Of a stretch of DNA of 40,559 nucleotides, positions 10,948-37,761 are shown one piece after another. The notes beneath the pieces were generated by a model that was given only the letters and a program-made list of their open reading frames with translations, was not told the origin of the DNA and did not search any database. Source of the DNA: Thiohalobacter sp. (GTDB taxonomy: Bacteria; Pseudomonadota; Gammaproteobacteria; DSM-19610); the NCBI GenBank assembly GCA_026984835.1, contig JALSRI010000107.1, positions 1 through 40,559 of the forward strand, in the 5' to 3' direction. The position numbers and the translations under genes were made by a program. How positions within the stretch are numbered: the first letter of the stretch is position 1; the number at the start of each line of letters is the position of its first letter.

Positions 10948-10989
10948 GTGTGACGGGTTTCCTTCCGTTTGCCGCTGCGGCGTGCCGAA

Positions 10990-11008
10990 ATGGGGTAAAA
11001 TACCCCAT
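10990..11008. promoter_or_regulatory. Perfect inverted repeat, possible operator or small hairpin
   Basis: ATGGGGTA, AAA, TACCCCAT form a perfect 8-bp dyad in the 135-bp gap between the class II aldolase gene (start 10947, leftward) and gspG (start 11083, rightward). The centre contains TAAAAT, which resembles a -10 box. The position suits an operator controlling one or both divergent genes, but no -35 box is convincing. Confidence 0.35.
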
Positions 11009-11082
11009 GCTGCCAGGAACCGGTAGCCGGGTCGCCGGTCACAGGGACCTGACACACTGTATTTCGACGGGATTTTCAATCG

Positions 11083-11514: not shown

Positions 11515-11528
11515 GCCCAACCCCCGGC

Positions 11529-12535: not shown

Positions 12536-13197
12536 TGCGGCGTTCGTCCGGCTTCACCCTGCTGGAACTGCTGGTGGCGCTCAGCATTTTCGCCCTGGTC
12601 AGCGTCATGGCCTATGGCGGCATGAGCCGGGTGATGGAGCAGCGTGCCCGTACCGCCGCGCAGGCCGAGCGCCTCAAGTACCTGCAACTGGCCGTCAACG
12701 TCATGGCGCGCGACTTCGAGCAACTGGTCGATCGCGGCATCCGCAACGAATTCGGCGATGCTGTGCCGGCGCTGGTGGGCGGCAGCGGTTTCCAGGGCGT
12801 CGAGTTCACCCACGCCGGCTACGCCAATCCCGCCCGCCTGCCGCGCAGCGAGCTGCAGCGGGTGGCCTACGTGCGCGAGGAGGACCGCATCCTGCGCCGT
12901 GTCTGGCGGGTGCTGGACCGCGCCCAGGACAGCCAGCCCGCCAGCACGGTGCTGATGGAGAAGGTGGACGCCTTCCGCCTGCGGTTCCTGACCGCCGACG
13001 GCGCCTGGCAGGACAACTGGCCGCCGCCCGGTCAGGCCGGCGACGCGCCGCCGGGGCTGCCGCGGGCGGTGGAGGTGAGCGTGGAGAGCGGGGATCTCGG
13101 TCGCCTGCGCTGGCTGTTCCGGCTGCCGGAGACGCCGTTGCCCCCCACGGCGGGTGCGGGGGGGCAGCCGCCGCCCGCGCCGGGAGGTGCGACATGA
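12535..13197 (+). CDS. gspJ: Type II secretion minor pseudopilin GspJ
   Basis: 220 residues, with prepilin motif SSGFTLLELLVALSIFALVS (Gly6, Glu at +5). The globular part contains MARDFEQLVDRGIRNEFG and RVAYVREEDRILRRVWRVLDRAQ, normal for GspJ. The C-terminal 20 residues are Pro/Gly rich. It forms the pseudopilus tip with GspI and GspK. The stop overlaps the gspK start by four bases (ATGA). Confidence 0.94.
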   Translation: MRRSSGFTLLELLVALSIFALVSVMAYGGMSRVMEQRARTAAQAERLKYLQLAVNVMARDFEQLVDRGIRNEFGDAVPALVGGSGFQGVEFTHAGYANPARLPRSELQRVAYVREEDRILRRVWRVLDRAQDSQPASTVLMEKVDAFRLRFLTADGAWQDNWPPPGQAGDAPPGLPRAVEVSVESGDLGRLRWLFRLPETPLPPTAGAGGQPPPAPGGAT

Positions 13198-14168
13198 GGC
13201 GCCAGCGCGGCGTGGCCCTGATCACCGCCATCCTGATGGTGAGCCTGGCCACGGTGGCGGCGGTGGCCATGGCCACCCGCCAGCAGCTCGACCTGCGCCG
13301 CACCGGCAACCTGCTGCACGGCGAGCAGGCCTGGGCCTATGTGCTGGGTGCGGAGAGCTGGGCGCGGGTGATACTGGCGCGCGACCTGACCCGGAACAAG
13401 ACCGATTCGGGCCAGGACGACTGGGCCACCCGGGTGCCGGCGGCCCTCGTCGAGGGCGGTTCGGTGGCCGGCCGCGTCGTCGACCTGCAGGGGCGTTTCA
13501 ATCTCAACAGCCTGGTGGATGAGCAGGGGCGGGCCGTGCCGGCCGCCATTGCGCGCTTCAAGCGCCTGCTGCAGGTGCTGGATATCAGCGAGACCCTGGC
13601 CAACGCGCTGGTCGACTGGCTGGACAAGAACGTCGACGTGACCTTTCCGGACGGCGCCGAGGACAACGCCTATCTGTTGCTGAACCCGCCCTACCGGGCC
13701 GCCAACCGGCCGCTGGGCAGCGTCTCGGAACTGCGCCTGGTGCAGGGTTTCACGGCCGAGGTGGTCGACGGGCTGCGGCCCTTCGTGTGCGCCCTGCCGA
13801 CCTCCTCCGGCGCCGTCAACGTCAACACCGCGCCGGCTGAAGTGCTGCGCACGCTGGCCGCCAACCTCAGCGAGAGCGATGGCGAGGCGCTGCTGGCGGC
13901 GCGCGAACAAGGGGTGTTCGAGGACGCGGCCCGGTTCCTGGCCCTGGCGCCGCTGGCCGGCAAGCAGGTGGACGCCGATTCGGTGACGGTCGCCAGCCAG
14001 TGGTTCCGGCTGGTGGCGGAGGCCAGCGTGGGACAGGGCTACGCCGGCCTGACCAGCCTGTTCCAGCGCACCCCCCAGGCGACCCGGGTGGTGCGCCGCG
14101 AGCGCCTGTTGCAGGAGCCGGTCACGGGCCCGGCGCCCGCGGGCGAGGCAGCGGGGGCCGGGGGTTGA
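13194..14168 (+). CDS. gspK: Type II secretion pseudopilin GspK
   Basis: 324 residues, the large tip pseudopilin. The start MRRQRGVALITAILMVSLAT has Gly6 and lacks Glu at mature +5 (Thr instead), which is characteristic of GspK because it caps the pilus. Helix-hairpin-like NVNTAPAEVLRTLA and LNSLVDEQGRAVP are family landmarks, and AYLLLNPPYRAANRPLGSVSELRLV is typical. The stop is followed by an 87-bp gap before gspL, the longest gap in the operon. Confidence 0.95.
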   Translation: MRRQRGVALITAILMVSLATVAAVAMATRQQLDLRRTGNLLHGEQAWAYVLGAESWARVILARDLTRNKTDSGQDDWATRVPAALVEGGSVAGRVVDLQGRFNLNSLVDEQGRAVPAAIARFKRLLQVLDISETLANALVDWLDKNVDVTFPDGAEDNAYLLLNPPYRAANRPLGSVSELRLVQGFTAEVVDGLRPFVCALPTSSGAVNVNTAPAEVLRTLAANLSESDGEALLAAREQGVFEDAARFLALAPLAGKQVDADSVTVASQWFRLVAEASVGQGYAGLTSLFQRTPQATRVVRRERLLQEPVTGPAPAGEAAGAGG

Positions 14169-14255
14169 GCGGCGCAGCGGCGCCGGAACGGTCCCCGCGG
14201 TTTGCAAGGCCGCGCTTCCAAGTTACGATGGCGACAACAGAAAACGGATGAACTC

Positions 14256-15461
14256 ATGGCAGAAAGCCTGCTGATACGGCTCACGAGCAACGGCGCGCTG
14301 CGCGACTGGGCCATCGTCGACGACGAGGGCCAGTGCCGCGACGGCGTGCATGGCGCCGGCGAGGCGCCGGCGAGCGCGGCCGCCGGCCGCCGCGTGGAAG
14401 TGCTGGTGCCGGCCGAGGACGTGCACCTGTGCCGCGCCCGGGTTCCGGGCCGCAACCGCCAGCGGGTGCTGCGTGCCATCCCCTACGCCCTGGAGGAGCA
14501 GCTCGCCGACGAGGTCGAGAGCCTGCATTTCGCCATCGGGCCGGCCGCGGAAGACGGCGATTACCCGGTCGCGGTGGTGGCGCGGGCGCGCATGAACGGC
14601 TGGCTGGAGAGCCTGCAGGACATGGGTCTGGCGCCGGACCGCCTGCTGCCCGACGCCCTGGCGCTGCCCCTGGCCGACGACGCCTGGAGCCTGCTGGTCG
14701 ACGGCGACCGGGCGCTGGTGCGGCGCGACGCCTGGAACGGTTTCGCCCTCGACACGGCCCTGCTGCCGGGCTGGTTCGAGCTGCTGGCCGGGCGCGAGGA
14801 GGCGCCGCCGCGGGTGCGGGTGTTCGGCGACGCCGCGGTCGATCTCGGCGTGATCGAGGTGGAACGCGAGGACACCGGCGGCGCGCCGCCGTTGGCCATC
14901 CTGGCGCGCGGCCGGGCACGGACCGAAGCCATCGACCTGTTGCAGGGCAGCTACGGCCGCCGCGAGGAACTCGGCCGCCTGCTGCGTCCCTGGCGCGCCA
15001 CCGCCGTGCTGCTGGCGGCCGGCCTGTTGCTGTTCCTGGTCTCGACCGGCATCGACTACTACCGCCTGTCGCGCGAGAACGACAGGCTGGCGGCCGAGAT
15101 CGAGCAGCTCTACCGCCGCACCTTCCCCGACGCCAAACGGGTGGTCAACGCCCGTGCCCAGATGGAGCAGCGCCTGAAGTCCCTGCGGCGCCGGGCCGGC
15201 CAGGCCGGCGCCGACTTCTTCGGCCTGCTGGGCGAGACCGGCAAGGTGCTGCAGCAGACGCCGGGCATCCAGGTCCGGGGCGTGAACTACCGGGACGGGC
15301 GGCTCGACCTGGAACTGACGGCGGACAACCTGCAGGTGCTCGACCGGCTCAAGCAGAAGCTGGTCGCCGGCGGCCGCCTGGCGGCGGAGATCCAGTCCGC
15401 CACCAGCGAGGGCGGCCAGAAGGTGAAGAGCCGCGTCCGCGTGCAGGGGGTGCGCTCGTGA
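14256..15461 (+). CDS. gspL: Type II secretion inner-membrane protein GspL
   Basis: 401 residues. The N-terminal actin-like cytoplasmic domain (about 1-245) binds the GspE ATPase and contains VEVLVPAEDVHLCRARVPG and RVLRAIPYALEEQLADEVE, both standard. One membrane helix lies near 250-270 (TAVLLAAGLLLFLVSTGID). The remainder is a periplasmic ferredoxin-like domain ending before gspM. ATG 14256 (MAESLLIRL) is chosen over the longer in-frame start at 14202, which has no conservation. The stop overlaps the GTG start of gspM. Confidence 0.93.
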   Translation: MAESLLIRLTSNGALRDWAIVDDEGQCRDGVHGAGEAPASAAAGRRVEVLVPAEDVHLCRARVPGRNRQRVLRAIPYALEEQLADEVESLHFAIGPAAEDGDYPVAVVARARMNGWLESLQDMGLAPDRLLPDALALPLADDAWSLLVDGDRALVRRDAWNGFALDTALLPGWFELLAGREEAPPRVRVFGDAAVDLGVIEVEREDTGGAPPLAILARGRARTEAIDLLQGSYGRREELGRLLRPWRATAVLLAAGLLLFLVSTGIDYYRLSRENDRLAAEIEQLYRRTFPDAKRVVNARAQMEQRLKSLRRRAGQAGADFFGLLGETGKVLQQTPGIQVRGVNYRDGRLDLELTADNLQVLDRLKQKLVAGGRLAAEIQSATSEGGQKVKSRVRVQGVRS

Positions 15462-25227: not shown

Positions 25228-26451
25228 CTAGCGGGAAACTGCAATTTTAGGCCACTGGTAGGTGAGCGTCAAATAGGCGGCGTTGCGTACCTCATCCCGA
25301 CCATTCTCTCGCGCTTGCTTGTTATATCGGTAACTGACTGAAATTCTGAAGAATCGAGATAAACTAAGCTGAATATGTGGTGTCACGGTGAAGTACCTTG
25401 TGTCCAATCGAGGTGAAACTGGACTCTGGTCCGTAGTCTGGGTATGGACCATTGACAGACCCAGGTCGCCTGATAAGGTTTCAGAGAAGTTGTATCGGTT
25501 GTCACTCGAAATTCGTGTTACTTCCACCAGTATGCCGGATATGGTGTTAGTGACGTCCCGGGAAGCTGAGAGGGAGATATCACCTCTGACAAATGCCTTC
25601 GACAGGCTCAAACTGAAGACGCTCCCGTTACTACTTGTTTCGGAACGTCCTGGTACATTGATGAAGCCCAGAGGTATACCCCCGGATAAAACGGGTACCG
25701 CGGCATTGTCGAACTCTGTCCGTGTACGTCTTAGGCCCAAAACTACCGACGCATTCAATATTTCGCTGAACCGGTAGGATGCTCCAATCTGCAAGAACGT
25801 GAACCTTGACTGTATGTTGTTTTCACTATCGGAAAAGGTTTGTCCTGCCGTCAACGAGGTAGTACTGCGTTCATTCAATATCCGCGCTACAGTTAGTTGG
25901 CCATTCTGGAGAGCATAGTCTACGAATGCCGTATTGCTTGTACTGCGATAGCGAACGTCAGTGTAAGTGTATTCGAAAGTCATACGTGTCAGGGGATCAA
26001 AATTCCATGTCCAGCCCGGATTGATGCTGTTGCTCAGGCGGGGTATACGATCGAAAACCAGTCCGGTCTGGTCGAGTTCGCTATCCAGCGTGGTATCTTT
26101 CAACGCGCTTAGATCGAGGCTCATTTCAGCCTTCTCCAGTCGATACAGTGATGTGATGCCCAGGCGTGCATTGTTGTCATTGAACTCAGCGGCATCCAAG
26201 AATCGCCTGAAATTCAGGCCGATCTCGCCGCTCAGGCTGGATCGAGCTGTTTCACGGCTGAACTTGGCGGTTGGGGTGATATCTATCTCAGCGGACGAAA
26301 TATTGCTCGCTGATTGCATGGTTATGTTGTCGTCGTATCCAACTCGTGACTGTAGTGCAGGCTCGATTTTCCATTCTGCAGCCGAGGCTGTAGTGGTGCT
26401 GGTGGCCAAAGTGAGTAAATACAGGCAAGAAAAAACCGAATATTCTTTCAT
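25228..26451 (-). CDS. Outer-membrane beta-barrel protein of EPS locus
   Basis: 407 residues with a clear signal peptide (MKEYSVFSCLYLLTLATSTTT, then ASA before AEWKIEP). The mature part is a continuous run of alternating polar/aromatic beta strands (GYDDNITMQ, TFEYTYTDVRYRST, TLTYQW), as in the outer-membrane proteins of exosortase/PEP-CTERM polysaccharide loci. The barrel ends YLTLTYQWPKIAVSR rather than with a terminal Phe. It is likely the outer-membrane outlet or scaffold working with the exporter encoded upstream. Codon use is lower in GC than the wzz body that follows 62 bp downstream. Confidence 0.78.
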   Translation of the reverse strand: MKEYSVFSCLYLLTLATSTTTASAAEWKIEPALQSRVGYDDNITMQSASNISSAEIDITPTAKFSRETARSSLSGEIGLNFRRFLDAAEFNDNNARLGITSLYRLEKAEMSLDLSALKDTTLDSELDQTGLVFDRIPRLSNSINPGWTWNFDPLTRMTFEYTYTDVRYRSTSNTAFVDYALQNGQLTVARILNERSTTSLTAGQTFSDSENNIQSRFTFLQIGASYRFSEILNASVVLGLRRTRTEFDNAAVPVLSGGIPLGFINVPGRSETSSNGSVFSLSLSKAFVRGDISLSASRDVTNTISGILVEVTRISSDNRYNFSETLSGDLGLSMVHTQTTDQSPVSPRLDTRYFTVTPHIQLSLSRFFRISVSYRYNKQARENGRDEVRNAAYLTLTYQWPKIAVSR

Positions 26452-26640
26452 GATGGCCGTCCCATCGTTGTGTTGGAGTCATGTTGATGCGTGGCCGCTG
26501 AATCAGGAGTCCACCTCCCTCGGCAGGGCAGGCCCCATCCGGATTGTGGTGGCCGAACGGGAATCGAGCGGCCCATGCGGTATCAACAGGCCTGGGAAGA
26601 GTCCTGGGGCAATATTGTTGTTTCTGTCGTCGGCTTGTTC

Positions 26641-27213
26641 TTATGGTACGACTACTACGTCGCCTGCATCTAACACAATATTCTGCTGAAGATTTTCGCC
26701 TTTCTCAATGTCTCCGTATCTGAAGGGTATGGATACAAGCTTGCCGCTTTTCCGTCGGAGGATCCGGATTTTGTTTGGCGCGGCATAGGTCGATGTTCCA
26801 CCAGCCATGCTTAATGCTTGCATGACATCGACATAGCGCGTGATGGGGAAAGCGCCGGGGCGATTTACCTTTCCAATGACATAGATTACATTGCCCGATA
26901 ACTGGTTTATTGATACGTTGACTACAGGGTCGGGTATGAATTTGCGCAGGCGATCCACAATGGAGTCGCGTACGTCAGAAACGGGGTGGTTTGCAGCCTC
27001 TATTTCGCCAACCAAGGGAAAGCTGATGAAACCGTCCGGTCGAACGATTGCATCCTGTGCAAGACCCTCTTCCTTCCATACCGAGATCGTGAGTACGTCG
27101 CCAGGTTGGATGAGGTAGCGCTTGATGTCAGCGATGGCTGATGATGATAGTGCACTCATTGCCATGCTGACTAACAGCAATAACAGCCTATGTTTTTGTG
27201 AGGTCGGATGCAT
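26641..27213 (-). CDS. Polysaccharide export protein (Wza/GumB-like, single SLBB)
   Basis: 190 residues. A signal peptide (about 1-28, ending SSSAIA before DIKRY) is followed by the polysaccharide export domain YLIQPGDVLTISVWKEEGL with AIVRPDGFISFPLVGEI, then an SLBB domain VYVIGKVNRPGAFPITRYVDVMQALSMAGG (shown here in part). It lacks the lipobox Cys of classical Wza, as do other short exporters in exosortase-type loci. It is the first gene of a leftward operon of six. The 189-bp gap to the next gene is the only long one in the operon. Confidence 0.9.
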   Translation of the reverse strand: MHPTSQKHRLLLLLVSMAMSALSSSAIADIKRYLIQPGDVLTISVWKEEGLAQDAIVRPDGFISFPLVGEIEAANHPVSDVRDSIVDRLRKFIPDPVVNVSINQLSGNVIYVIGKVNRPGAFPITRYVDVMQALSMAGGTSTYAAPNKIRILRRKSGKLVSIPFRYGDIEKGENLQQNIVLDAGDVVVVP

Positions 27214-27311
27214 GGTGAATTGGGCTGACTACTTTGTTTTTGCTTAAGGGCCAATAGTGCGCTCGTATTGAATCAGAAGGTGCATTGAGGGTCAAGAAAC
27301 GATGCCAACTG

Positions 27312-27370
27312 AGCCGAAGAAGTTCTCTTGGCGGCCCAGGAGCTTCGATCGACAGGGATGTTCTTCGGCT
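27312..27370. other. Long-armed inverted repeat, possible structured leader RNA
   Basis: AGCCGAAGAA (27312-27321) pairs perfectly with TTCTTCGGCT (27361-27370). Inside the 39-base loop, CTCTTGG and CCAGGAG can form a second stem around CGGC. It lies 99-157 bases upstream of the exporter start. No T-run follows on either strand, so it is not a simple terminator. Confidence 0.4.
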
Positions 27371-27568
27371 GCCTGAATTATCAGGATGCTCTTATATGAT
27401 TATATAAATATAAACTATATGGTATGAATGCTGAAACAGGAAGCTCATTAGCGGACCGTTAATAGTCTTGAGAAGGATCAAATGAAGCTGCATTGAGCGT
27501 GGGATGCTTTTTTGCTTGCCTTAAACTAAGGAATCCGGCTTTGTCCTGCAGGGTGAACGAATGTCGAG

Positions 27569-27574
27569 TATAAT
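27569..27574 (+). promoter_or_regulatory. Possible -10 box of the lipoprotein gene
   Basis: TATAAT lies 63 bases ahead of ATG 27638. There is no good -35 hexamer at 16-18 bases (TTGTCC is 22 bases upstream), so another sigma factor or an activator would be needed. Confidence 0.33.
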
Positions 27575-27637
27575 ATTGGGAACTGTTGCAGGGCAATCCG
27601 GTGTAATTCGAGTATGGCTTGTTGGTGGGAATGGCAA

Positions 27638-28564
27638 ATGAACAGGAACGCAATTAGTCATGCCGGTATGGTTGCGATGGCCATAGTCTTGGCTGCTGCG
27701 CTGGCAGGCTGTACCGGCGTAACGTCGTTTGGTTTAACTGCTCGCGCCGGTGATACCGTTGCGCTGCCACTTGGTTGGCAGCAGAACCTCAGTCGGAAAG
27801 ATGTCCGTGTAACGATAACTGACAGCTCGTCCGCTCAGTTCACATATCTCCCTGGCGACCCATCGGTGCGCTCGATCTTCAACAGTTATCCAGACCCCAT
27901 ATCCAATCTGATAGTTGGTGGCGAGACCGGGCAGCCCGGATTGGGGGGTAGTCTTGCGGGCTCTGCCACCGCGTTCGTCGACGCGTCGGTTACAGCTGGG
28001 GACAAGGATTATTTACAGACTTTCATGTTGCTGGATTTGCCCATGGGGATGTCGGTAGGAACGGCGAATATCAGTGTCACCGATCCTGCTGGTAACCCGA
28101 TTCCAAATCCTTCCACAGCAAGCGGCAGTATCGATCCGCTGGCAGTGGAGATCGTGGCGGGGGTTGGGACTCCTAATCAATTGCTTGCACAGGAAGGGCT
28201 TCAGGTAATCGAGGGGTATCTCGTCGCTCTGGAACGTACTGCCCACTATACAGTGACATTTTCCGGGAGCACCATCCCGTATGCGATCCAGCTTGACATG
28301 GTCCACGCGCCAGATGTGGACAACGGTGGGACGGGTAAGGCCTATGTAGTGAATCCGCGTGGCGACCTGAAAAGCGTAAACTGGCATGACGACGGAACGA
28401 ATATGAATATCATTATCATGCCGGCCCGTGATCGGACGCTTTCCGACATAAAGCAGTTTAAATTCTATATTGCCGGCGGTATTACAGGGTTGTCCGTGTC
28501 TCAAATACAGGCATTTGATATGAACGGAAATATGCTTTCTTCTATCAACGTATTTGTGAACTGA
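27638..28564 (+). CDS. Lipoprotein of unknown function
   Basis: 308 residues. The signal sequence MNRNAISHAGMVAMAIVLAA ends in the lipobox LAGC with the modified Cys at 25, so the protein is exported and lipid-anchored. The mature part is predicted mostly beta (VRVTITDSSSAQFTYL, HYTVTFSGSTIPYAIQLDMV), with a Gly-rich turn region (GETGQPGLGGSLAGSATAF). No known domain is recognised. It is transcribed away from the EPS operon and 86 bp ahead of the TPR-oxygenase gene. A surface or envelope role is inferred only from the signal and the neighbourhood. Confidence 0.75.
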   Translation: MNRNAISHAGMVAMAIVLAAALAGCTGVTSFGLTARAGDTVALPLGWQQNLSRKDVRVTITDSSSAQFTYLPGDPSVRSIFNSYPDPISNLIVGGETGQPGLGGSLAGSATAFVDASVTAGDKDYLQTFMLLDLPMGMSVGTANISVTDPAGNPIPNPSTASGSIDPLAVEIVAGVGTPNQLLAQEGLQVIEGYLVALERTAHYTVTFSGSTIPYAIQLDMVHAPDVDNGGTGKAYVVNPRGDLKSVNWHDDGTNMNIIIMPARDRTLSDIKQFKFYIAGGITGLSVSQIQAFDMNGNMLSSINVFVN

Positions 28565-28650
28565 ATAGTATATCTGGTCGAGACTATTCGGCCATATATC
28601 ACCGCATCTTGTATCCTCGATAGTCGGCAGAACGATTTTTGGTATTGTAA

Positions 28651-30357
28651 TTGAACAGCCAGTCACCAAGTCGGCATGTCAATACAACACTGGCGCAAGC
28701 GCTGAAATGCCATGGCCATGGTTCGGTTCGAAAAGCCGAACGCTTATACAGAAAAGTGTTGCGCGATGATCCAACCCAGTCTATCGCGCTGCAGAATTTG
28801 AGCAGACTGCTGCTTGATCAGGAAAAGTATCCGGAAGCGATTAGGCTGGCAGCCAACGCAATTGCTCGGCAGCCTGGAAACACCCTATTTGAACTCTGCC
28901 TGGCCGATGCGCTATGTATGAACGGGGATTACGATGCTGCGATTCATCGTTATGGCCGCGCTTTGCAGTCATCCGAGAAAAGCATGGCAGCGTTGCTGGG
29001 ACGAGCCAGAGCGCATCGATCGAAGGGCGATGTCGAGGGTGCGGTTGCAGATTTGCGATTGGCAATCAGCATGGATCCGGGGTTCCCGCAACCAAGCTAT
29101 GAACTGGCAAACCTGCTCCGTACTGACGGCCGTTTGGATCAGGTGCTGGAGGTGCTGGAGGCGCTTGTAGAGCGCAGGCCCAATGATGCGGATGCGCACC
29201 TTAATCTCGGCAATTTCCTGAAAGAGCTGGGTGAATTTGATCGGGCTCGGGCCGAATACCGCTTTGCGGAGAACTTGTTGCCGCATTCGCCGCTTCCATA
29301 TCAGGCAATGGCTTATCTTCTTTTGGAGCTCGGGGATTACGACGGAGCCCATCGGGCATTTTACTCTGCCTTCGTATTGCGTCATGGCAGAGGATTCGGC
29401 AGGGAAGAATTGTTTGTGCCTCACAAAGTGTCTGAAGAAGCCGGTGGAAAGCTGGTTATGTCTGCTTTTTACTTTGAAAATATGATCGGACATATTGGGC
29501 GCCTTATCGAGGGTGGGCGACTCCATCCTTCCTTCAGGAAGCTTGTCGAATTGTACGGCTCGGTGCAAGAAGGCCTTGATTTTCCGGATGCCGTTGATTG
29601 CAGGATTACCGTGCCGGAATCGGTGGCGGCTGCGATAAGGCCATTTTGCCACCTCGCTCTGCATTATGCGCCGCCAGGCATGATTCCATCGAGAGCGCTG
29701 GCGGGTGATCCCGGGGACTATTATCGTAGATTGGAAGACGACTATTTAGGGTCATCTCTGCCCTGCGTTGTTCTCGATAACGCTCTGTCACAGGCCGCAC
29801 TGGAAGGGCTGAGGGAGTTCTGCCTCGATTCAACCATCTACTTTCAGCAGAGTCCTTCAGGTTTTCTGTTTTCACATGTGCATGATGGATTCAGTTGCCC
29901 GCTGTTGTATCAAATAGCGGCAGAATTGAAGCAGAATTTTCCACGGGTACTTGGGGGCCTGCCGTTGAAAGAGGTATGGGCATATCGTTATCCGCATTCA
30001 GGCGATGGTGTGCGCCCCCACACCGACCAGGCGGCCGTGACGGTGAATTTCTGGATTACGGAGCAGAGCGCCAATGAACGCCCGGACAGTGGGGGGCTGG
30101 TCGTGTACGCCAAGGAGCAATCGTTGGATGTCGACTGGTTCGAGCAGAACTACAACAAGCATGACGAGCATATGCGCCATCAGATTGCTGTCGACATCAC
30201 TTCTTCAGCCGCCATTACCATCCCGTACATGGAAAACCGTGCCGTCATTTTTCGATCCAATCTATATCACCAAACTGACGAGTACTGGTTCAGAGATGAC
30301 TATACCGGCAGACGGCTGAATGTGACGCTGTTGTTTGGGGCGCGAGGGTCAGATTGA
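28651..30357 (+). CDS. TPR protein fused to a 2-oxoglutarate/Fe(II)-dependent oxygenase
   Basis: 568 residues from TTG 28651; no other start lies nearby in frame. Residues about 10-245 form tetratricopeptide repeats (AERLYRKVLRDDPTQSIALQ, AEYRFAENLLPHSPLPYQAM). The C-terminal 190 residues have the jelly-roll iron site: H457-T-D459 in GDGVRPHTDQAAV, H540 in RSNLYHQTDEYW, and the 2OG-binding Arg in GRRLNVTLLFGAR (R555). It should hydroxylate a protein or small molecule; TPRs usually select the protein target. The stop overlaps the start region of the methyltransferase gene, so the two probably act together. Confidence 0.82.
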   Translation: MNSQSPSRHVNTTLAQALKCHGHGSVRKAERLYRKVLRDDPTQSIALQNLSRLLLDQEKYPEAIRLAANAIARQPGNTLFELCLADALCMNGDYDAAIHRYGRALQSSEKSMAALLGRARAHRSKGDVEGAVADLRLAISMDPGFPQPSYELANLLRTDGRLDQVLEVLEALVERRPNDADAHLNLGNFLKELGEFDRARAEYRFAENLLPHSPLPYQAMAYLLLELGDYDGAHRAFYSAFVLRHGRGFGREELFVPHKVSEEAGGKLVMSAFYFENMIGHIGRLIEGGRLHPSFRKLVELYGSVQEGLDFPDAVDCRITVPESVAAAIRPFCHLALHYAPPGMIPSRALAGDPGDYYRRLEDDYLGSSLPCVVLDNALSQAALEGLREFCLDSTIYFQQSPSGFLFSHVHDGFSCPLLYQIAAELKQNFPRVLGGLPLKEVWAYRYPHSGDGVRPHTDQAAVTVNFWITEQSANERPDSGGLVVYAKEQSLDVDWFEQNYNKHDEHMRHQIAVDITSSAAITIPYMENRAVIFRSNLYHQTDEYWFRDDYTGRRLNVTLLFGARGSD

Positions 30358-30365
30358 GGAGCATC

Positions 30366-31751
30366 GTGCCGGATTCCAGTTCCAGATATCATCCCGCAGT
30401 CAGGGCGCAATATGAATCGTTCCCGTATCCTCCCAGGAATCCGGCCGATGAGCTGGCCCGGCTTCTGCTGACCGAGATGGATGCCCTGGGTAAGGTAAGC
30501 TATTACTGCTTTCAGGGGCGCCTCGACTTAAGAGAAAATATTCGCATTCTGGTCGCTGGCGGAGGCACGGGAGATGCAGCTATATTCCTCGCGGAGCAGT
30601 TACGCGGACATCCCGGTGAGGTGGTCTATCTTGATATCAGCAGGGCTTCCATGGAAATTGCCATGGCCCGGGCACGGGTGCGCAAACTGGATAATATTCG
30701 CTGGGTGTCTGGCTCGCTGCTCGATATTCCGCAATTGGATCTGGGATGTTTTGACTACATCAACTGTAGCGGCGTGCTCCACCATCTTGAGGATCCTGTT
30801 GAGGGCTTGCGGGTAACAGCATCAGCGCTCGCCCCCCGCGGGGTTCTTGGTATCATGGTTTACGCAAAGTATGGCCGGACGGGCGTATATCACTTTCAGG
30901 AGCTGATGCGCCTGTTCGGTGGTGAAGACACCGAGTTGGCGGAGATACTGGGTGTGGCCCGATCCCTTATCCATAGTTTGCCGAATACTCATACGCTGAA
31001 GTGTGGCCCCATACCACTTACTAGCCAAAAGGCGGCTGAACTTGAAGATGCAGATATAGTGGATCTGTTCCTGCATCCCCAGGACAGGGCATATACGGTA
31101 TCGGAATTATACGACTGGTTGCATTCCTGTAACCTGGAGCTGGTCGATTTCGTATGTTCACGCCATTTATACGAGCCTGAAACCCACGTTGACGATTCCC
31201 AGCTTCTGGGGTTGATCGGCAGATTGCCTCGTCCGCAGCAACAGGCGATCGCGGAGAATATGGGGGGGAATCTATACAAACATGTCTTTTATACGGGGAA
31301 AGCAACCCCGCGACGTATTGATGTCGACGACCTCAACAACATCCCCTACTTCTGTGATCTGGTGCCGCTGTCGGCCGAGGAGCGGAGGCTGCTTCAGGAA
31401 TACGTCATGGCTGCGCCGATCGGCAGGAAATGCCGCCTTCACTTCCCCAGGGGGAATAGCAGTTTTGAAATCCAGATAACCCCCACGACAGGTTTGTTTT
31501 TCAGGTTCATTGATGGACAGAGGACTCTTGGTAAGATCATCAAGCTGGTCCAGCGACATGCGCGTGCAGCGGGTATTCAGCGCCCGGATCTGAAAAAGGA
31601 GTTCAGGCAGCTTTTCCGCCAGATGAGCTGTAAACATGCCTTGTTACTACGAGGGCGCACCGTGCCGGCCTACAAAACCTATGCGGAGCTCCAGGCTGGA
31701 TGCAAGCCAAGGAGGCACCCGGAAGGTTTGGCCGAATCGGGGGGGCTGTGA
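30366..31751 (+). CDS. Class I SAM-dependent methyltransferase with C-terminal extension
   Basis: 461 residues from GTG 30366, with AGGAG four bases upstream (30357-30361); TTG 30354 is an alternative start overlapping the upstream stop. Residues about 15-215 hold the SAM fold: ILVAGGGTGDAAIFLAEQL for the glycine loop, VVYLDISRASMEIA for the acidic loop and FDYINCSGVLHHLEDPVEGL for motif IV/post-I. The region after 330 (VMAAPIGRKCRLHFPRG, then FFRFIDGQRTLGKII) looks like a separate wing-like regulatory domain. The substrate is unknown; coupling with the oxygenase suggests sequential hydroxylation and methylation. Confidence 0.82.
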   Translation: MPDSSSRYHPAVRAQYESFPYPPRNPADELARLLLTEMDALGKVSYYCFQGRLDLRENIRILVAGGGTGDAAIFLAEQLRGHPGEVVYLDISRASMEIAMARARVRKLDNIRWVSGSLLDIPQLDLGCFDYINCSGVLHHLEDPVEGLRVTASALAPRGVLGIMVYAKYGRTGVYHFQELMRLFGGEDTELAEILGVARSLIHSLPNTHTLKCGPIPLTSQKAAELEDADIVDLFLHPQDRAYTVSELYDWLHSCNLELVDFVCSRHLYEPETHVDDSQLLGLIGRLPRPQQQAIAENMGGNLYKHVFYTGKATPRRIDVDDLNNIPYFCDLVPLSAEERRLLQEYVMAAPIGRKCRLHFPRGNSSFEIQITPTTGLFFRFIDGQRTLGKIIKLVQRHARAAGIQRPDLKKEFRQLFRQMSCKHALLLRGRTVPAYKTYAELQAGCKPRRHPEGLAESGGL

Positions 31752-31761
31752 GGGTTAGTAT

Positions 31762-31803
31762 TCAGGCGAACTATATGCGTGTGCAGTGAGAGTATTCGCC
31801 TGA
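31762..31803. other. Inverted repeat downstream of the methyltransferase gene
   Basis: TCAGGCGAA (31762-31770) and TTCGCCTGA (31795-31803) are perfect 9-bp arms around a 25-base loop, 11 bases after the stop. There is no following T-run, so it is a 3' hairpin or protein-binding dyad rather than a canonical terminator. Confidence 0.4.
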
Positions 31804-31829
31804 CACATCTGCTGTTGGCAAGTTATTCG

Positions 31830-31847
31830 TTCGAGTCCTGCCCGGCG
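31830..31847 (+). other. Short sequence resembling the 3' end of a tRNA gene
   Basis: TTCGAGTCCTGCCCGGCG resembles a T-loop, T-stem 3' side and acceptor 3' side of a tRNA. The matching 5' stem and the rest of a tRNA are missing. Such fragments occur as attachment-site remnants, but 18 bases can also arise by chance. Confidence 0.2.
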
Positions 31848-31965
31848 TGCAGGCGCTTGTGCTGCTGGGTGTGGAGTATGGAAATCCACATCATCACTTA
31901 GTCTGCCACTGGGGCGCGATAAAACCTGCGTAACTTTCCCCGTGAATGCGCGATGAACCAAAAAA

Positions 31966-31990
31966 GGGCGCCCCGCCAAGCGGGGCGCCC
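31966..31990 (-). terminator. Rho-independent terminator of the PEP-CTERM-type gene
   Basis: GGGCGCCCCGC, loop CAA, GCGGGGCGCCC is a perfect 11-bp GC-rich stem. On the minus strand it is followed by TTTTTT, 48 bases past the stop of the gene at 32038-32892. Confidence 0.88.
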
Positions 31991-32037
31991 TCCCGTTTGT
32001 CACACTTTAAGTGGGGCAAACTATGCGGCTGTCTCCT

Positions 32038-32892
32038 TCAGCCTTTCTTCCTGCGGGCGACACCGACCATTCCCAGCAGGCCAGAGCCGAACAGCCAGAC
32101 CGCAGCGGGCACAGGTACGACTGCCGCCGTCGCAACGGCGCCGCCAAACTCGAACTGCGTGTACTGGTTTGCGAAGCCGAGGGAGTCCTCATTGGCCGTG
32201 ATCTGGTGCTCGGCGGTACAGTGCAGGCTGGAGAAGCCGGCGCCCGCGGAGTTGGCCGCGCCAGTGCTACAGTTGAAAACAACCGGAGCGTCGGTGCCGA
32301 TGGCGAATAGGCCGCCGCCCCACTGGGCCTCCAGGATCGGCACCGTGATCGAGAACGAATCATTGGCGCCAATGCTGGTCTTGCTCAGAGTCGCCGGACC
32401 GGTGCCATACTCGGCGATCACCGCACTACCCACGGTCGGGGCGCGGAAGCCGAAGTTGCCGGTAGGTGCCGGAAACAGGAACGCAGCGTTCAGGAACATG
32501 CCGGTACCAGGCGCACCGCTAGATGGGCCGCAATTCGGGCACTTGATACTGCCACCCGGAGTCATCGGCGTGCCGTTGACTGCAGTCAGATCACCGGCGT
32601 TGTCGAAAACCCAGTTGATGCCGGTCGCACCAGTGGTGTCGGCAGCGCCGGAAACGACGCTCTTTTCGCCACCGCCGCTGACGGAGCCGCCGTTCATGAC
32701 GCGGAACTCGTTGGGTGCCGTGCCCTGTAGGTCAAAGCCTGCATTGAAGACACCATTGTTTGCGGCATCAGCGGCAGGGAACGGGTTGACCGGGCTGGTG
32801 TTGTCGCCCAGGTAGAGGACAACAGCCGACGCACCGCTCGAGGCTACGCCCAGTACGGCAGCAAGTGCCGAAGATAACAGAGTTTTTTTCAT
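32038..32892 (-). CDS. Secreted protein with VPLPA/PEP-CTERM-type sorting signal
   Basis: 284 residues. Signal peptide 1-23 (ends SGASA before VVLYLGD). Residues about 26-252 are an uncharacterised beta-rich domain with SPVNPFP (33-39), EFRV (62-65), SGGGEKS (72-78), APTVGSA (150-156), ILEAQW (186-191) and EDSLGFANQYTQF (235-247). The C-terminus is VPVPAAVWLFGSGLLGMVGV then ARRKKG: a sorting motif, a membrane helix and a basic tail, as cleaved by exosortases (VPLPA-type signals are linked to XrtD). A strong GGAGGAG lies six bases before ATG. The same domain occurs in the protein at 35004-37022. Confidence 0.88.
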   Translation of the reverse strand: MKKTLLSSALAAVLGVASSGASAVVLYLGDNTSPVNPFPAADAANNGVFNAGFDLQGTAPNEFRVMNGGSVSGGGEKSVVSGAADTTGATGINWVFDNAGDLTAVNGTPMTPGGSIKCPNCGPSSGAPGTGMFLNAAFLFPAPTGNFGFRAPTVGSAVIAEYGTGPATLSKTSIGANDSFSITVPILEAQWGGGLFAIGTDAPVVFNCSTGAANSAGAGFSSLHCTAEHQITANEDSLGFANQYTQFEFGGAVATAAVVPVPAAVWLFGSGLLGMVGVARRKKG

Positions 32893-33641
32893 TGACTACT
32901 CCTCCAAAACGAGAGTATGTTCGGTTTCCTGAGGTTGCGCGTACACGATACAAGCCAATCCGCAAGCTTGCGCTACCTGTTAAACTTCAGCCAAGCCAGT
33001 TCTCCAAATCCGGGCCTACGAAAAACTTGCCTAAATCTGTAGTTGGACTTAAAGAGAAGCTTCGGTATCTACGGTTCACCACTGCACCATGTGCGCGTTT
33101 TAGGACGATGCAACATGCATGCCAGTCAGCTATCTCGTTGGTGAATAAGCCAAATAGCTCTGTTGGCTGGAGGCGGACCTAGCCGAACTGTAAAGTAATC
33201 CGACGCAATTCTCCGTTTGGGTCCTTCTCCCCGATCATCAGTGCGTTGGTAACCACATTAACAACAATAAGTTACATCTATCCTGCTGCTCCAGGCATCA
33301 TTGTTAATAATTCCGACGCATTCAGGTGGCGGATGGTCGTGGAAATGGCCTATCGAACCATACCTTAAGCGCTACAATCGAAATTCATAGATTGTATCTA
33401 AATTCCTAGAAGCAGGGGTATGGCTGTGCTGGGTTGTTTTCGCATAGCGGCCGGTTCTGCTTTGATGGAAATAGACTCCATCAATTTGACAATGGTCTGG
33501 ATGGGGCGAAATAATGCGAGCCGCCAAACGCTGGCGCGACATGGCGTGCGGAGAAGATTTTATAATAATCCAACGGGATTTGCGGCGCGGAAGTGCTGCG
33601 TGAGGATCCCGATTTGCTACAGATTTTAGGAGGAGGCGCAA
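32893..33641. other. Long non-coding gap between divergent surface-protein genes
   Basis: 749 bp, moderately AT-rich, with no ORF having plausible coding character on either strand. It includes a promoter-like pair at 33486-33515 and AT-rich words such as ATTGTTAATAATT near 33300. It must hold the promoters for the divergent PEP-CTERM-type and FadL-type genes. I see no RNA gene. Confidence 0.65.
33486..33515 (+). promoter_or_regulatory. Candidate sigma-70 promoter of the FadL-type gene
   Basis: TTGACA (33486-33491), 18-base spacer, AATAAT (33510-33515), a perfect -35 and a 5/6 -10. Transcription would start near 33522, giving a 120-base leader before ATG 33642. Confidence 0.45.
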
Positions 33642-34934
33642 ATGTCGATTCGATATCGGCGAGTTGGAGTGTTGTTGTGTAGTTTTTTCGCGTCTAGCAA
33701 TGCATTCGCGACCAATGGTTACTTCCTGATCGGCTATGGTACCCAATCCCGTGGCATGGGGGGAGCGGCCATCGCACTGCCACAACAAGGAGAAGCGGCT
33801 GCCGTCAATCCGGCGGGTTTGGTGGATCTGGGAACCCGCATCGATATCGACGCGGCACTTTTCCTGCCGCGGCGTCGCTCTGCGTGCTGTCTGTCGCAAG
33901 AAGGTGTGGTCAGTGGCGCCAACGTGTTTTTGATTCCCAGCCTTGGAGGGGTGTTCAAGTTCAACCGTAGGATGTCCCTGGGGCTTGGCGTGGTCGGCGC
34001 CGGTGCGAACACGCGTTTTGAGCAGAATTTTTTCTTCGATGACCCAAACCTGGCAGGGCCGCAAGCGGACCAGAGTAATGGTGCTCTGGGTGTCAGCCTG
34101 ATCCAGATGATCATGGCCCCAGGGGTAGCCTACAAGGTCGACAAACACAATGCAGTGGGTGTTTCCCTGCAAATTGGTATGCAGCAGTTCAGGGCCTATG
34201 GTCTGTCAAACGCATTCGCCAATTTGTCTCAGGATCCGGATAATCTGACGAATCGTGGGAACGACTATTCGTATGGCGCGGGTGTGCGTCTGGGATGGCG
34301 AGGCAAGTTCTTCGACAAACGTTTGATGCTGGGCGCCACTTACGCGAGCAGAACCTACATGACCCGATTCGATAAGTACAGGGGGCTGTTCGCAGATGAG
34401 GGTAATTTTGATATACCTGAAAATTACGGGCTTGGCATCGCAATCAAACCTGTAGGTGGATTGGTCATCGCATTTGACTGGAAGCGGATCTTGTACAGCA
34501 ACATTCCGGCGGTGGGTAACCCCGCAACACCGATCAGCGCGGATCCGAATAACACAAAAGACAAGCTGGGGAATGCGAGCGGACCCGGGTTCGGATGGAG
34601 CAATCAGAGCATATATAAAGTCGGTATCTCCTATGATCTGACTCATGCCTTTACAGTGAGGGCTGGCTATAATTATGGGAAAACTCCAATAAGAGAAAAT
34701 GATTCGCTGGAGTTCAACGTGCTGGCGCCCGCTACAACGGAGAAACACATTACGCTGGGCGGAACCTACCGGATCGGTAAGGCCCATGAGTGGAGTTTTG
34801 CATACCAGCATGCGCGTCGAAACAAATTGAAGACGAATGTTGACGCCAACGCAGGGCTTCCATTTTCGGGACCCGTGGAGACCGAACTGTATATCAATAC
34901 ATTCGAGATCGGTTATTCATTCAAATTGAATTAG
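33642..34934 (+). CDS. FadL/OmpP1/TodX-type outer-membrane transporter
   Basis: 430 residues. Signal peptide 1-23 ends SNAFA before TNGYF. The mature N-terminus NGYFLIGYGTQSRGMGGAAI with AAAVNPAGL is the FadL family hatch region, followed by a 14-strand barrel pattern ending FEIGYSFKLN. FadL proteins move long-chain fatty acids, alkanes or aromatic hydrocarbons across the outer membrane; the ligand cannot be told from the sequence. AGGAGGAGG lies just upstream. The gene is flanked by two genes encoding the same novel secreted domain and is probably co-transcribed with the one 69 bp downstream. Confidence 0.92.
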   Translation: MSIRYRRVGVLLCSFFASSNAFATNGYFLIGYGTQSRGMGGAAIALPQQGEAAAVNPAGLVDLGTRIDIDAALFLPRRRSACCLSQEGVVSGANVFLIPSLGGVFKFNRRMSLGLGVVGAGANTRFEQNFFFDDPNLAGPQADQSNGALGVSLIQMIMAPGVAYKVDKHNAVGVSLQIGMQQFRAYGLSNAFANLSQDPDNLTNRGNDYSYGAGVRLGWRGKFFDKRLMLGATYASRTYMTRFDKYRGLFADEGNFDIPENYGLGIAIKPVGGLVIAFDWKRILYSNIPAVGNPATPISADPNNTKDKLGNASGPGFGWSNQSIYKVGISYDLTHAFTVRAGYNYGKTPIRENDSLEFNVLAPATTEKHITLGGTYRIGKAHEWSFAYQHARRNKLKTNVDANAGLPFSGPVETELYINTFEIGYSFKLN

Positions 34935-35003
34935 GAAATCCCAGTATTACTATAGAGCCGTGCAGCCGAGGTTGCATGAGCTCTTGCAGGAGGAGCTTTA
35001 GGT

Positions 35004-37022
35004 ATGTATTCCAATAAACGAACGATCGCGCGGATAACTGTGCCCAAATCTCTCAGGTCAGCGTTGTTTTGTGCTGCATTGTCGGTGTTTGGCTCTGGTG
35101 CGCAGGCGGATACGACGTTGGTGTTTGCCGATAATCTTTCACCTTCCAACCCGTTTCCTGGGGCTAAGCCAACCCAGCAAACCGCGATGGCGCCGGGTGT
35201 CGAATTCAGGGTAGTCACATCGACCGGGTTCGTGTCGGGTGGCGGCGAAAAATCCATAATTGGCCAATCGGTGGTCTCCAATCCACCCTCGTTTGTCGAT
35301 GGCGGACCATTGTTGCCGACTCCGGCGGGCTGGCAGTTTGTGTCCTGGGTCTTTGATTCCAACAATCAGCTGGCTGCCGTACTCAACTCTGATACGACTT
35401 TGGGGGCGACGGCGTCGGTGGCGACCTGCAATGGTATCACCAGTGCGGCGCCGCTCGGCGCGACAGGGTTGTTCAGGAATGCGTTATTCCTGGCCGCGCC
35501 TTTTGGTTTTCTGGCGCCCACGGTGGGAAGTGCGGCCGCCGCTGCATACGGCGTTGGACAGTTGTCATTCTCGGGTGTCAGTGCCTTTACCGTGCGTATC
35601 CCGGTTGCGGAAGCTCAGTGGTCGAACTGTCCTTTCCAGTTGGGAGGCCAGAACAATGCAGGTATATCGTTTCTTGGTACGGTCGGTGCTGACCGGCATA
35701 CGTTTCGTTTAGTGGCAGACCATGAAATAGGGCCGACCGGGGTTGAGGATTCGCTCGGCTTCGCGGGTCAGAATACGCAATGGGATCTTGTTGGTGTTAT
35801 CAACAGCGATCCCAGCCCCAATATCACTTCATATTCAACACTGCCCGCGCAGCAACTGGTTATTCCTTTGACAAGTCTGGCTACGGACCGGGAGTCGGAT
35901 GGACTCTCTATCTCAACGACTGGTTCTAGGGCGGTCACAGGAAGTGCCGGCGGCTCTGTAACCTGTACTGCTACTGATTGCACATACAATCCAGCCGGTT
36001 CCGCAGGGACGGATAGCTTCACGATTACGGTGGTGGATGATTGTGCCACGACAGTGGCTACTTGTGTTCAGGGGAGCGGCAATATTACTGTTACAGTCAA
36101 TGTAACGGCGGCGCCTATTGCTTCCAATGACGCTTTTACCGTGAGCCAGAATAGTGCGAACAATTCGCTCAATCTGACGGCAAACGATTTGCCGGGGAGC
36201 GTGGCTATTAATCCGGCGGCAATAACAATAGTTTCGCCACCTGGTAATGGGACGATTGGCACGCCGCTGCCTGGAGATGGCACAGTCAGCTATACGCCAA
36301 ATGCGGGCTTCTCCGGCACCGACAGTTTTTCCTATACTGTAGATGACACGCTTGGCAATGTCTCGAACACTGCATCGGTCACAGTAACGGTGAATTGCAT
36401 TGATGCATGTGCTTCGTCCGGTACCGCGCCTTCTGGTGGCATGGTGACCGGTTCTGTGCGCATTACAGCTGCAGATCTTGTCGCTGCAGGCGTGCCGGCC
36501 GATGATGGGGCCGATGGGGTCGGTGTTTCCTGTGACCCGGATTGTTTCGATTTTGTCGTGGCAGCACCTGGTGGGCAGGTTCAGGTCGTTTTCGCTCTGT
36601 CAGGGCCAATCAAGCCGCAGTCCGTGTATCGAAAAGTAGTAAATGGAACGTGGAGATCTTTCGATTCCACCGGTGGAAATGCGGTTAAGTCGGCCCTTGG
36701 TGCTCCGGGTTCTTGTCCTCCACCAGGCGACCCGGCTTATTCCACGGGGCTTGCTGCAGGTGATCTTTGTCTGGAACTCACTATTGTAGACGGTGGTCCA
36801 AATGACGCTGATTCGATTGTGGGGCAGGTGAGCGATCCGGGCGGTATTGGCTCTGGCCTACCGGCACCAGTCGTACTTGCGGGGCAGGAACTCAGTAGTA
36901 CGCCCGGCGGTTGTACCCTGAGTCCGACAGGCAGTTGGCGCAGAGGCGACCTGTGGTTGATAGGTTTGGTGTTGATAGTGCTGGGTTACAGGCTCCATAG
37001 TCGTCGAGGCCACGCCAATTAA
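35004..37022 (+). CDS. Multidomain secreted protein with choice-of-anchor U domain and Cys-type C-terminal anchor
   Basis: 672 residues. Signal peptide about 1-35 (SGAQA before DTTLV). Residues about 37-265 repeat the domain of the protein at 32038: SPSNPFP (46-52), EFRV (67-70), SGGGEKS (78-84), APTVGSA (171-177), VAEAQW (201-206) and EDSLGFAGQNTQW (248-260). Two cadherin/Ig-like repeats follow (about 270-365 and 370-465, with AGTDSFTITV and SGTDSFSYTVDDTLGNV). A choice-of-anchor U domain (about 475-625) shows SVYRKVVNGTWRSF and LTIVDGGPNDADSIVGQVSD. The tail GGC637TLSPTGSWRRGDLWL, helix and HSRR resembles JDVT-CTERM signals with an invariant Cys. Multiple Cys suggest disulfides. AGGAGGAG lies eight bases upstream. 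Confidence 0.85.
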   Translation: MYSNKRTIARITVPKSLRSALFCAALSVFGSGAQADTTLVFADNLSPSNPFPGAKPTQQTAMAPGVEFRVVTSTGFVSGGGEKSIIGQSVVSNPPSFVDGGPLLPTPAGWQFVSWVFDSNNQLAAVLNSDTTLGATASVATCNGITSAAPLGATGLFRNALFLAAPFGFLAPTVGSAAAAAYGVGQLSFSGVSAFTVRIPVAEAQWSNCPFQLGGQNNAGISFLGTVGADRHTFRLVADHEIGPTGVEDSLGFAGQNTQWDLVGVINSDPSPNITSYSTLPAQQLVIPLTSLATDRESDGLSISTTGSRAVTGSAGGSVTCTATDCTYNPAGSAGTDSFTITVVDDCATTVATCVQGSGNITVTVNVTAAPIASNDAFTVSQNSANNSLNLTANDLPGSVAINPAAITIVSPPGNGTIGTPLPGDGTVSYTPNAGFSGTDSFSYTVDDTLGNVSNTASVTVTVNCIDACASSGTAPSGGMVTGSVRITAADLVAAGVPADDGADGVGVSCDPDCFDFVVAAPGGQVQVVFALSGPIKPQSVYRKVVNGTWRSFDSTGGNAVKSALGAPGSCPPPGDPAYSTGLAAGDLCLELTIVDGGPNDADSIVGQVSDPGGIGSGLPAPVVLAGQELSSTPGGCTLSPTGSWRRGDLWLIGLVLIVLGYRLHSRRGHAN

Positions 37023-37090
37023 TGTTGGCACCTAGCGGCTTGTCCTGGATAGCAGTTAGTTACTGAGCTGCTTAGGGGCGCTGGAAATAG

Positions 37091-37119
37091 GCTTGGCGTG
37101 GTTGAAAACCACGCCAAGC
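37091..37119 (+). terminator. Rho-independent terminator of the FadL/surface-protein unit
   Basis: GCTTGGCGTGGTT, loop GAA, AACCACGCCAAGC is a perfect 13-bp stem followed by TTTTCAGTTT. It closes the rightward unit 33642-37022. The remaining 186 bp before aroQ show no gene. Confidence 0.9.
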
Positions 37120-37305
37120 TTTTCAGTTTGAATACGGAGACGACCGGATCATGCGGAGCCCCTGCGGCCATTGTCTGCTCTAGTTGACAGAATGGTGACC
37201 GCGGCCGACATGAAGCATAGATCGTGCGAATCCATTTTCGTGGGGGTGGGTGGGATTGCCTGTGATTGAGGCTATGCTAGCGGGGGAAGTTGTTTCAAAC
37301 ATGTC

Positions 37306-37761
37306 ATGTCTTGCATATTGATTCTCAATGGGCCAAACCTCAATCTCCTTGGGCAGCGAGAGCCAGATACCTATGGCTTGATTACCCTGGATGTGATCAT
37401 TAGGCGGTTGAATGAGCTTTTGTCGGAGGGGTCGGGTCGACTACTCACCTTCCAGTCCAACGCCGAACACGAACTCATCGACCACATCCACGCTGCCCCC
37501 CACGAGGGTATCGATTTCATCATTTTCAACCCGGCGGCCTTCACCCACACCAGCGTGGCCCTGCGCGACGCCCTGCTGGCGGTGAAGATCCCCTTCATCG
37601 AGGTGCACCTGTCCAACGTGCACGCCCGCGAGGGCTTCCGGCGCAAGTCGTACTTTTCCGACATCGCTGTCGGCGTCATCAGCGGGCTGGGGCCGATCGG
37701 CTATGAGCTGGCGCTGCAGGCGGCGCTGTCGTTTGTTGGCGACAAAAAAGCCGAAAGCTGA
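37306..37761 (+). CDS. aroQ: Type II 3-dehydroquinate dehydratase
   Basis: 151 residues. Dodecameric shikimate-pathway enzyme making 3-dehydroshikimate. The catalytic loop GQREPDTYG contains Arg18 and Tyr23 after [40 protein letters not shown] and [22 protein letters not shown] complete the family. The sequence is intact, but the first 45 codons use CTT, TTG, AGG, CTA and CGA freely while the rest is almost all G/C-ending, so a composition breakpoint appears to lie inside the gene near 37440. aroQ-accB-accC is the standard gammaproteobacterial order. Confidence 0.96.

Follow-up and report, generated by a model that had tools for sequence, protein, structure and literature searches.

Does a gene for a 2-oxoglutarate/Fe(II) (2OG/Fe(II)) oxygenase that directly precedes a methyltransferase gene form one pathway with it, or do the two enzymes act separately? 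This question is raised by a 40,559-nucleotide stretch of DNA from Thiohalobacter sp. (hereafter the window), one whole contig (JALSRI010000107.1) of a 2.87-Mb assembly, which encodes a putative oxygenase preceded by tetratricopeptide repeats (TPRs), here termed OX, and a class I methyltransferase, here termed MT (Table 1). A first-pass annotation of the sequence had interpreted the two genes as a tailoring unit that hydroxylates and then methylates a protein, peptide or glycan. Both look like well-formed, complete enzymes by sequence and predicted fold. The reading that we favour, tentatively, is that they are two protein-modifying enzymes encoded side by side, probably on one coupled message, and do not form a fixed two-step pathway. 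Lysine methylation by MT and TPR-guided hydroxylation by OX would probably be directed at exported proteins.

A conserved OX-MT pair is rejected on both neighbourhood and co-occurrence counts. Among 369 genomes of the class, OX was identified in eight (E ≤ 1e-10) and MT in 22 (E ≤ 1e-12); each count includes the window genome, the sole one to carry the two together. The search for the same pair in other genomes, which the first-pass annotation had itself named as the test of its proposal, was conducted as a six-frame check of flanks of up to 10 kb, limited by contig ends. It covered 90 OX loci (80 named loci, representing the best 80 of 263 relatives, plus ten from genomes, four of which are repeats) and 23 MT loci (15 stretches plus eight others, some of them TPR-fused or short). 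A related MT domain was found near OX in a single one of the 90 loci (L155, Prochlorococcus), generic methyltransferase matches were found near OX in two (L119 and L091), and OX was found in none of the 23 MT loci. The 15 stretches, all lacking OX, derive from 14 of the 17 other genomes that encode MT in a set of 398 genomes of the phylum (18 at E ≤ 1e-25 including the window genome; G613 gave two stretches). At the level of whole genomes, 14 of 49 OX genomes contain an MT-domain match at E ≤ 1e-12 and only four a full-length MT (those of L088, L126, L143 and L148; E 4.6e-76 to 1.5e-71); two of these four matches contain one stop codon, and none lies within the examined OX flanks. Within the same family, OX is present in four of 19 other genomes (G004, G009, G013 and G016; 41-43% identity over the query domain), in which the methyltransferase matches are all generic (E 4e-8 or weaker) and no close MT is present. 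As no conserved linkage is apparent in these samples, the outcome that the first-pass annotation had stated would refute its proposal, the pairing seems, as far as seen, particular to this lineage. The two-step proposal, in which OX first adds a hydroxyl to a residue that MT then O-methylates, could draw on the adjacency and probable co-translation of the genes, but we consider it improbable: OX and MT are unlinked elsewhere, the characterized relatives of MT are lysine enzymes, and the lysine-methylating fold group to which MT belongs needs no prior hydroxylation.

The same counts bear on another explanation, according to which OX and MT are unrelated tailoring enzymes that met by chance in an acquired islet of surface genes and have in common only a shared message, an arrangement compatible with both of them modifying protein. 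The lack of linkage elsewhere, the same-family genomes that have OX and no close MT, and a low GC content at third codon positions (GC3) common to several unrelated genes of the stretch make this a real possibility. However, it is at odds with the one TPR module common to both catalytic types in Prochlorococcus, with the GT41 genes that accompany both enzymes elsewhere (see below), and with the junction of the two genes, where a ribosome-binding-like site across the OX stop points to co-translation. The MT open frame spans 30354-31751 on the plus strand and would encode 465 amino acids if begun at TTG 30354, which results in a 4-base overlap with OX. GTG 30366 instead leaves a gap of 8 bases and is spaced 4 bases from the GAGGAG motif, and this codon is the better and most likely start. 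Of the overlap described at first pass, the tight junction stands and the overlap itself would exist only with the TTG start; the genes would be coupled rather than overlapping. Because GAGGAG spans the OX stop, OX and MT are probably translationally coupled on one shared message.

Pfam and NCBIfam models recognize only the S-adenosylmethionine (AdoMet) domain of MT (PF08242, E 3.3e-17). Generic methyltransferases align to approximately residue 315 of 461, so that about 145 further residues follow. The first-pass annotation had correctly noticed a C-terminal extension beyond the generic domain, yet the region is not an additional module: a novel domain of unknown kind is ruled out, as the extension is the family's own C-terminal domain, shared with Rv2067c and the protein lysine methyltransferases (PKMTs). 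In a phmmer search against the PDB, MT residues 53-419 of 461 matched Rv2067c (8hkr; E 1.4e-26), and a profile of 17 MT members aligned with positions 7-409 of 415 to the same structure (E 6.8e-69). Structure prediction, also suggested at first pass, agreed with these matches: the AlphaFold2 model of MT (mean predicted local distance difference test score, pLDDT, 85.3) was aligned by VIA to 8hkr with Z 32.2 (368 of 378 residues, 3.4 Å) and to PKMT1 and PKMT2 with Z 22.3-23.0 over 368-389 residues, while the remaining listed matches reached Z 17.6 or lower over 220 residues or fewer. Foldseek ranked the matches in the same order (8hkr, E 2.2e-24). By sequence and fold, MT thus has the three-part build of Rv2067c, consisting of a catalytic, an inserted dimerization and a C-terminal domain.

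The Rv2067c report describes a homodimeric enzyme with catalytic, dimerization and C-terminal domains, its trimethylation of free histone H3 at H3K79, and a trough resembling that of the OmpB methylators PKMT1 and PKMT2 (PMC10739865). MT resembles this enzyme along its full-length sequence and in build and fold, but is only 23-26% identical to it, and its gene lies beside surface genes in what is probably an environmental gammaproteobacterium, where no histone target is apparent. With the Rickettsia enzymes PKMT1 and PKMT2, MT shares the fold and the AdoMet-binding aspartate (PKMT1 Asp102, MT D90; 16 of 17 members have Asp here and one has Glu), but its identity to them is 13-16% and it lacks their AdoMet-contacting histidine: PKMT1 His146 corresponds to Ser135, as judged visually on the profile alignment with PKMT2, and the position is occupied by C, S, T or A in all 17 members. 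Because this histidine is not kept, MT is grouped here with Rv2067c and not with the outer-membrane PKMTs. Two further bacterial lysine methyltransferases were considered, KmtA of Acinetobacter, an outer-membrane protein lysine methyltransferase that has the AdoMet-contacting histidine, and cKMT1 of Synechocystis, a ferredoxin-NADP reductase lysine methyltransferase that is a possible relative. The KmtA study reports methylation of the adhesin AtaA at many lysines and portrays bacterial lysine methylation as poorly charted (PMC11784438). By analogy with its characterized relatives, MT may methylate protein lysine and act as a homodimer.

A C-terminal domain that is small and, by eye, winged-helix-like could also bind a leader peptide, in which case the pair would modify a small ribosomal peptide as in natural-product biosynthesis. 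We regard this as very improbable, as the domain belongs to the Rv2067c/PKMT build and has no Pfam match up to E 10 (HMMER filters on), and a scan of nine window proteins named no natural-product family, small frames not having been searched for precursor peptides. In the viral contigs, the MT query retrieved one weak relative (26%). Genome G238 contains two tandem MT homologues (39-41% identical) adjoining, by eye, FliS and a FliT-like gene; the same region (L065:3145-11876) also encodes a 1707-amino-acid TPR protein with GT9 and polysaccharide-pyruvyl-transferase matches and represents a possible flagellin-modification cluster.

OX combines strong TPRs (Pfam TPR_16, E 2.8e-24) with a C-terminal oxygenase domain. 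The complete H-x-D...H...R site noticed at first pass at the end of this TPR protein is confirmed: H457, D459, H540 and R555 are kept in all 11 sequences of an initial alignment (ten relatives besides the window), in all 80 cellular sequences of a wider one (the window plus 79 relatives, drawn from 78 of the 80 named loci, as L091 and L117 have no called frame) and also in 34 of 34 TPR-less viral sequences. Owing to this invariance across cellular and viral alignments, the motif set is not a chance occurrence. The AlphaFold2 model, built with 52 sequences (mean pLDDT 93.2, predicted template modelling score 0.89), consists of TPR helices followed by a strand-rich C-terminal domain, whose strand order fits a double-stranded beta-helix. 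Structure searches were dominated by TPR matches, and Foldseek returned TPR proteins, the TPRs of OGT, and AspH. Among members of a catalytic-domain set, 25 of 45 match PF13640 (2OG-FeII_Oxy_3) at E ≤ 0.1 (best E 9.3e-4); OX of the window has no PF13640 match at this threshold and a weak PhyH match (E 0.024), and eight NCBIfam families each match one of the 45 members weakly.

Two known architectures resemble OX. Like OX, AspH has a TPR arm ahead of a 2OG oxygenase domain, and the Foldseek match extends across both parts, but TM-scores are just 0.27-0.36. Furthermore, D459 is present in 80 of 80 sequences, unlike the iron site without an acidic ligand that we take to be typical of AspH. OGT and other GT41 enzymes likewise have a TPR superhelix ahead of the catalytic part, but OX differs in chemistry and lacks a glycosyltransferase domain; no GT41 match was found among the open frames of the window. 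OX is a distinct, widespread family of a known architectural type without a name in the Pfam and NCBIfam models searched. The literature searched returned papers on AspH and OGFOD1 and no description of an OX-type family of TPR-2OG oxygenases, which is our one ground for considering the family apparently undescribed.

OX catalytic domains without TPRs are encoded on 34 predicted viral contigs (L192-L225). Most are approximately 330 amino acids long and two are shorter, one of them at a contig end; several begin with a basic segment like that of TPR proteins of the OX family in Nitrospira, and some lie near terminase-like genes, as judged by eye. In Nitrospira (L094, L127 and other loci), OX is a stand-alone gene amid recurring neighbours, by eye RtcB-like and response-regulator genes, and no tailoring partner was seen beside it in these loci.

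The neighbours of OX and MT in other genomes offer clues to their substrates. In the same-family genomes G004 and G009, a TPR-GT41 gene is located upstream of OX on the opposite strand (Pfam GT41, E 2e-50 and 1.4e-48); in G101, each of the two TPR-MT genes adjoins a GT41 gene (E 6.2e-57 and 4.4e-30). As protein O-GlcNAc transferase belongs to GT41, this company favours protein substrates. In addition, a query consisting of a 200-amino-acid leader and TPRs yielded 40 matches in Prochlorococcus AG-402-M18 (G770), many of which are repeats within one protein, and the 16 frames examined (loci L084, L155 and L269-L275) revealed one module ahead of diverse catalytic domains. With the leader, it precedes an OX domain in L084, MT-type domains in L155 and L269, GT41 in L270 and once in L271, a PF13759 oxygenase in L272 and a TylF-type methyltransferase in L155. 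Among the frames cut at contig ends, or with similarity limited to the TPRs, are two further GT41, one of them partial, two further domains of PF13759 type, one of them assigned by eye, and a second OX in L155; four frames contain TPRs alone and one has no named catalytic domain. The MT domain of L155 covers profile positions 4-275 of 415, without the C-terminal domain. By analogy, and bearing in mind that TPRs are alike in general, this shared module supports a protein-modifying role. OX and MT could further belong to a set of interchangeable protein-modifying domains, placed on TPR address modules or encoded as separate neighbours, that mark the same exported proteins combinatorially, an extension that is conceivable and that we put forward as speculation. 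Such a set might, equally speculatively, comprise an OGT-like transferase, two kinds of 2OG oxygenase, lysine-methyltransferase-like and TylF-like methyltransferases and perhaps sulfotransferases.

The sugar and sulfotransferase genes around OX in the relatives can be read either way, for protein or for glycan. A further explanation is that OX oxidizes and MT methylates sugars, for instance of an XrtA-associated polysaccharide with its genes upstream. The genes upstream on the other strand do include chain-length and export-type ones and that of an XrtA-associated ATPase, the low-GC stretch takes in the export gene together with the pair, and sulfotransferase and sugar-nucleotide genes lie near OX in G004 and G009. 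Nevertheless, glycan tailoring appears unlikely. MT has the fold of protein lysine methyltransferases, no polysaccharide genes were seen by eye among the 25 commonest neighbour clusters of the 80 OX loci, and the clusters shared among the 15 MT stretches are not polysaccharide genes. A TPR arm would also be unusual on a sugar enzyme. XrtA/PEP-CTERM loci were likewise not found by eye among those 25 clusters, no dedicated model having been used. Two findings raise the weight of both the interchangeable-set extension and glycan tailoring: OX in G004 and G009 has GT41, sulfotransferase and sugar-nucleotide genes nearby, and GT41 genes adjoin TPR-MT in G101. Among the target types left open at first pass, protein remains the likeliest, with glycan and peptide retained as rivals at the strengths given above.

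Several observations weigh against the favoured reading of OX and MT as neighbouring protein modifiers. The scarcity of linkage described above is one of them: one related MT domain in the 90 OX loci (L155) and no OX in the 23 MT loci. For OX, the 50 VIA matches listed include no oxygenase, although TPRs fill the list, so that the fold was barely tested, and a sequence search for solved relatives of the catalytic part gave eight matches, all at E ≥ 0.39. For MT, the missing AdoMet-contacting histidine means that lysine specificity rests on the relationship to Rv2067c. The gene downstream of OX in G004 encodes a sulfotransferase (E 1.4e-13), which also fits work on glycans; the corresponding G009 gene is a contig-end fragment with no Pfam match that is 83% identical to it, and FdtA and sugar-nucleotide genes of DegT type, together with another sulfotransferase gene, are located within about 10 kb of OX in G009. 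Outside Prochlorococcus, GT41 (E ≤ 1e-12) is absent from the examined OX flanks except in G004 and G009, and in G013 and G016 the OX neighbours differ from those in G004 and G009 and include no nameable tailoring gene. No YadA-type adhesin or anchor was found in the genome. Finally, the substrates and products of OX and MT are ones that we infer, and their chemistry is predicted.

The genomic setting agrees with the first-pass remark that the pair lies by surface machinery, as it adjoins surface and secretion genes. Type II secretion genes (gspH, gspJ, gspK and gspL, within 10950-15458) are located upstream of the XrtA-associated genes, which comprise, on the minus strand upstream of the pair, the XrtA-associated ATPase, a chain-length determinant, a TIGR03016 gene and export-type genes; of these, just the chain-length determinant scores above its curated cut-off. 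The surroundings of the pair further encode a VPLPA-CTERM protein, a FadL-type porin and a protein bearing Big_9/tandem-95 repeats. The lipoprotein-like protein encoded upstream of OX has no Pfam or NCBIfam match at E ≤ 1e-3, and a weak N-terminal relative (31.5% over 92 amino acids, E 5e-8) is encoded about 4.8 kb from OX in L030. The GC content of the window is mostly 0.67-0.75 up to approximately 24 kb, and 0.51-0.55 in 1500-base blocks of 25.5-37.5 kb except for one block of 0.60. GC3 is 0.56 for OX, 0.61 for MT and 0.53-0.59 in five neighbours (TIGR03016, export, lipoprotein-like, FadL and tandem-95 genes). It reaches 0.80-0.95 in mpl, thiD, gspJ, gspK, gspL, cysQ (matched part), the XrtA ATPase gene and accC, with intermediate values of 0.74 for the VPLPA-CTERM gene, 0.83 for the chain-length gene and 0.68 for an unnamed frame at 37810, and 0.53 in a doubtful frame at 22777. 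Because of its low GC and GC3, the stretch 25500-37500 is a probable acquired islet of surface genes that holds OX and MT. A promoter and terminator scan gave results near shuffled expectation. Flagellins are encoded at two places in the genome, on other contigs; neither they nor the absence of YadA settles the substrate.

Table 1. Coordinates of the OX and MT genes, their predicted functional parts and related loci (window positions unless a locus is given).
Feature	Position	Strand	Remarks
OX gene (TPR and 2OG/Fe(II) oxygenase)	28651..30357	+	568 amino acids; TTG start abutting upstream TAA; open-frame reading
OX TPR superhelix, residues 6-245	28666..29385	+	14 helices (6-22 to 230-245) in AlphaFold2 model; Pfam TPR families
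OX catalytic part, residues 262-568	29434..30354	+	beta-helix type judged by strand order in model
OX H457-T-D459, putative iron ligands (H-x-D motif)	30019..30027	+	codons at 30019 and 30025; role from motif
OX H540, putative third iron ligand	30268..30270	+	invariant in alignments
OX R555, likely 2-oxoglutarate-binding arginine	30313..30315	+	invariant in alignments; putative role
GAGGAG, ribosome-binding-like site	30356..30361	+	overlaps OX stop TGA (30355-30357); read from sequence
MT gene (Rv2067c/PKMT-like class I methyltransferase)	30366..31751	+	461 amino acids from GTG 30366
MT AdoMet-binding motif, residues 62-70	30549..30575	+	L62, A64, G65 and G67 invariant in 17/17
MT C-terminal domain, about residues 312-435	31299..31670	+	counterpart of Rv2067c C-terminal domain; boundaries approximate; 8hkr aligned to residue 432
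Lipoprotein-like gene, possible first gene of the same transcription unit	27614..28564	+	86 bases upstream of OX
OX flanked by divergent TPR-GT41 and sulfotransferase in two same-family relatives	L029:8264-12562; L030:2649-7441		
GT41 genes directly beside TPR-fused MT genes, G101	L043:3-1337; L061:2355-3719	-, -	

In the mechanism that we propose for the two neighbouring protein modifiers, the TPR superhelix of OX would hold a substrate protein or peptide and present it to the 2-oxoglutarate/Fe(II) centre, which would hydroxylate a side chain. MT, presumably as a dimer, would take an extended, still unfolded polypeptide into its trough and methylate lysine amino groups, with an exported or surface protein, still within the cytoplasm, as the likeliest target. 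An apparently generic methyltransferase is hereby placed in the lysine-methylating fold group. If OX and MT do belong to an interchangeable set of protein-modifying domains, the viral TPR-less forms of OX would represent a captured piece of that kit. Bacterial protein hydroxylation is poorly charted, and OX adds to it a concrete, widespread family of TPR-oxygenases with TPR-less viral forms.

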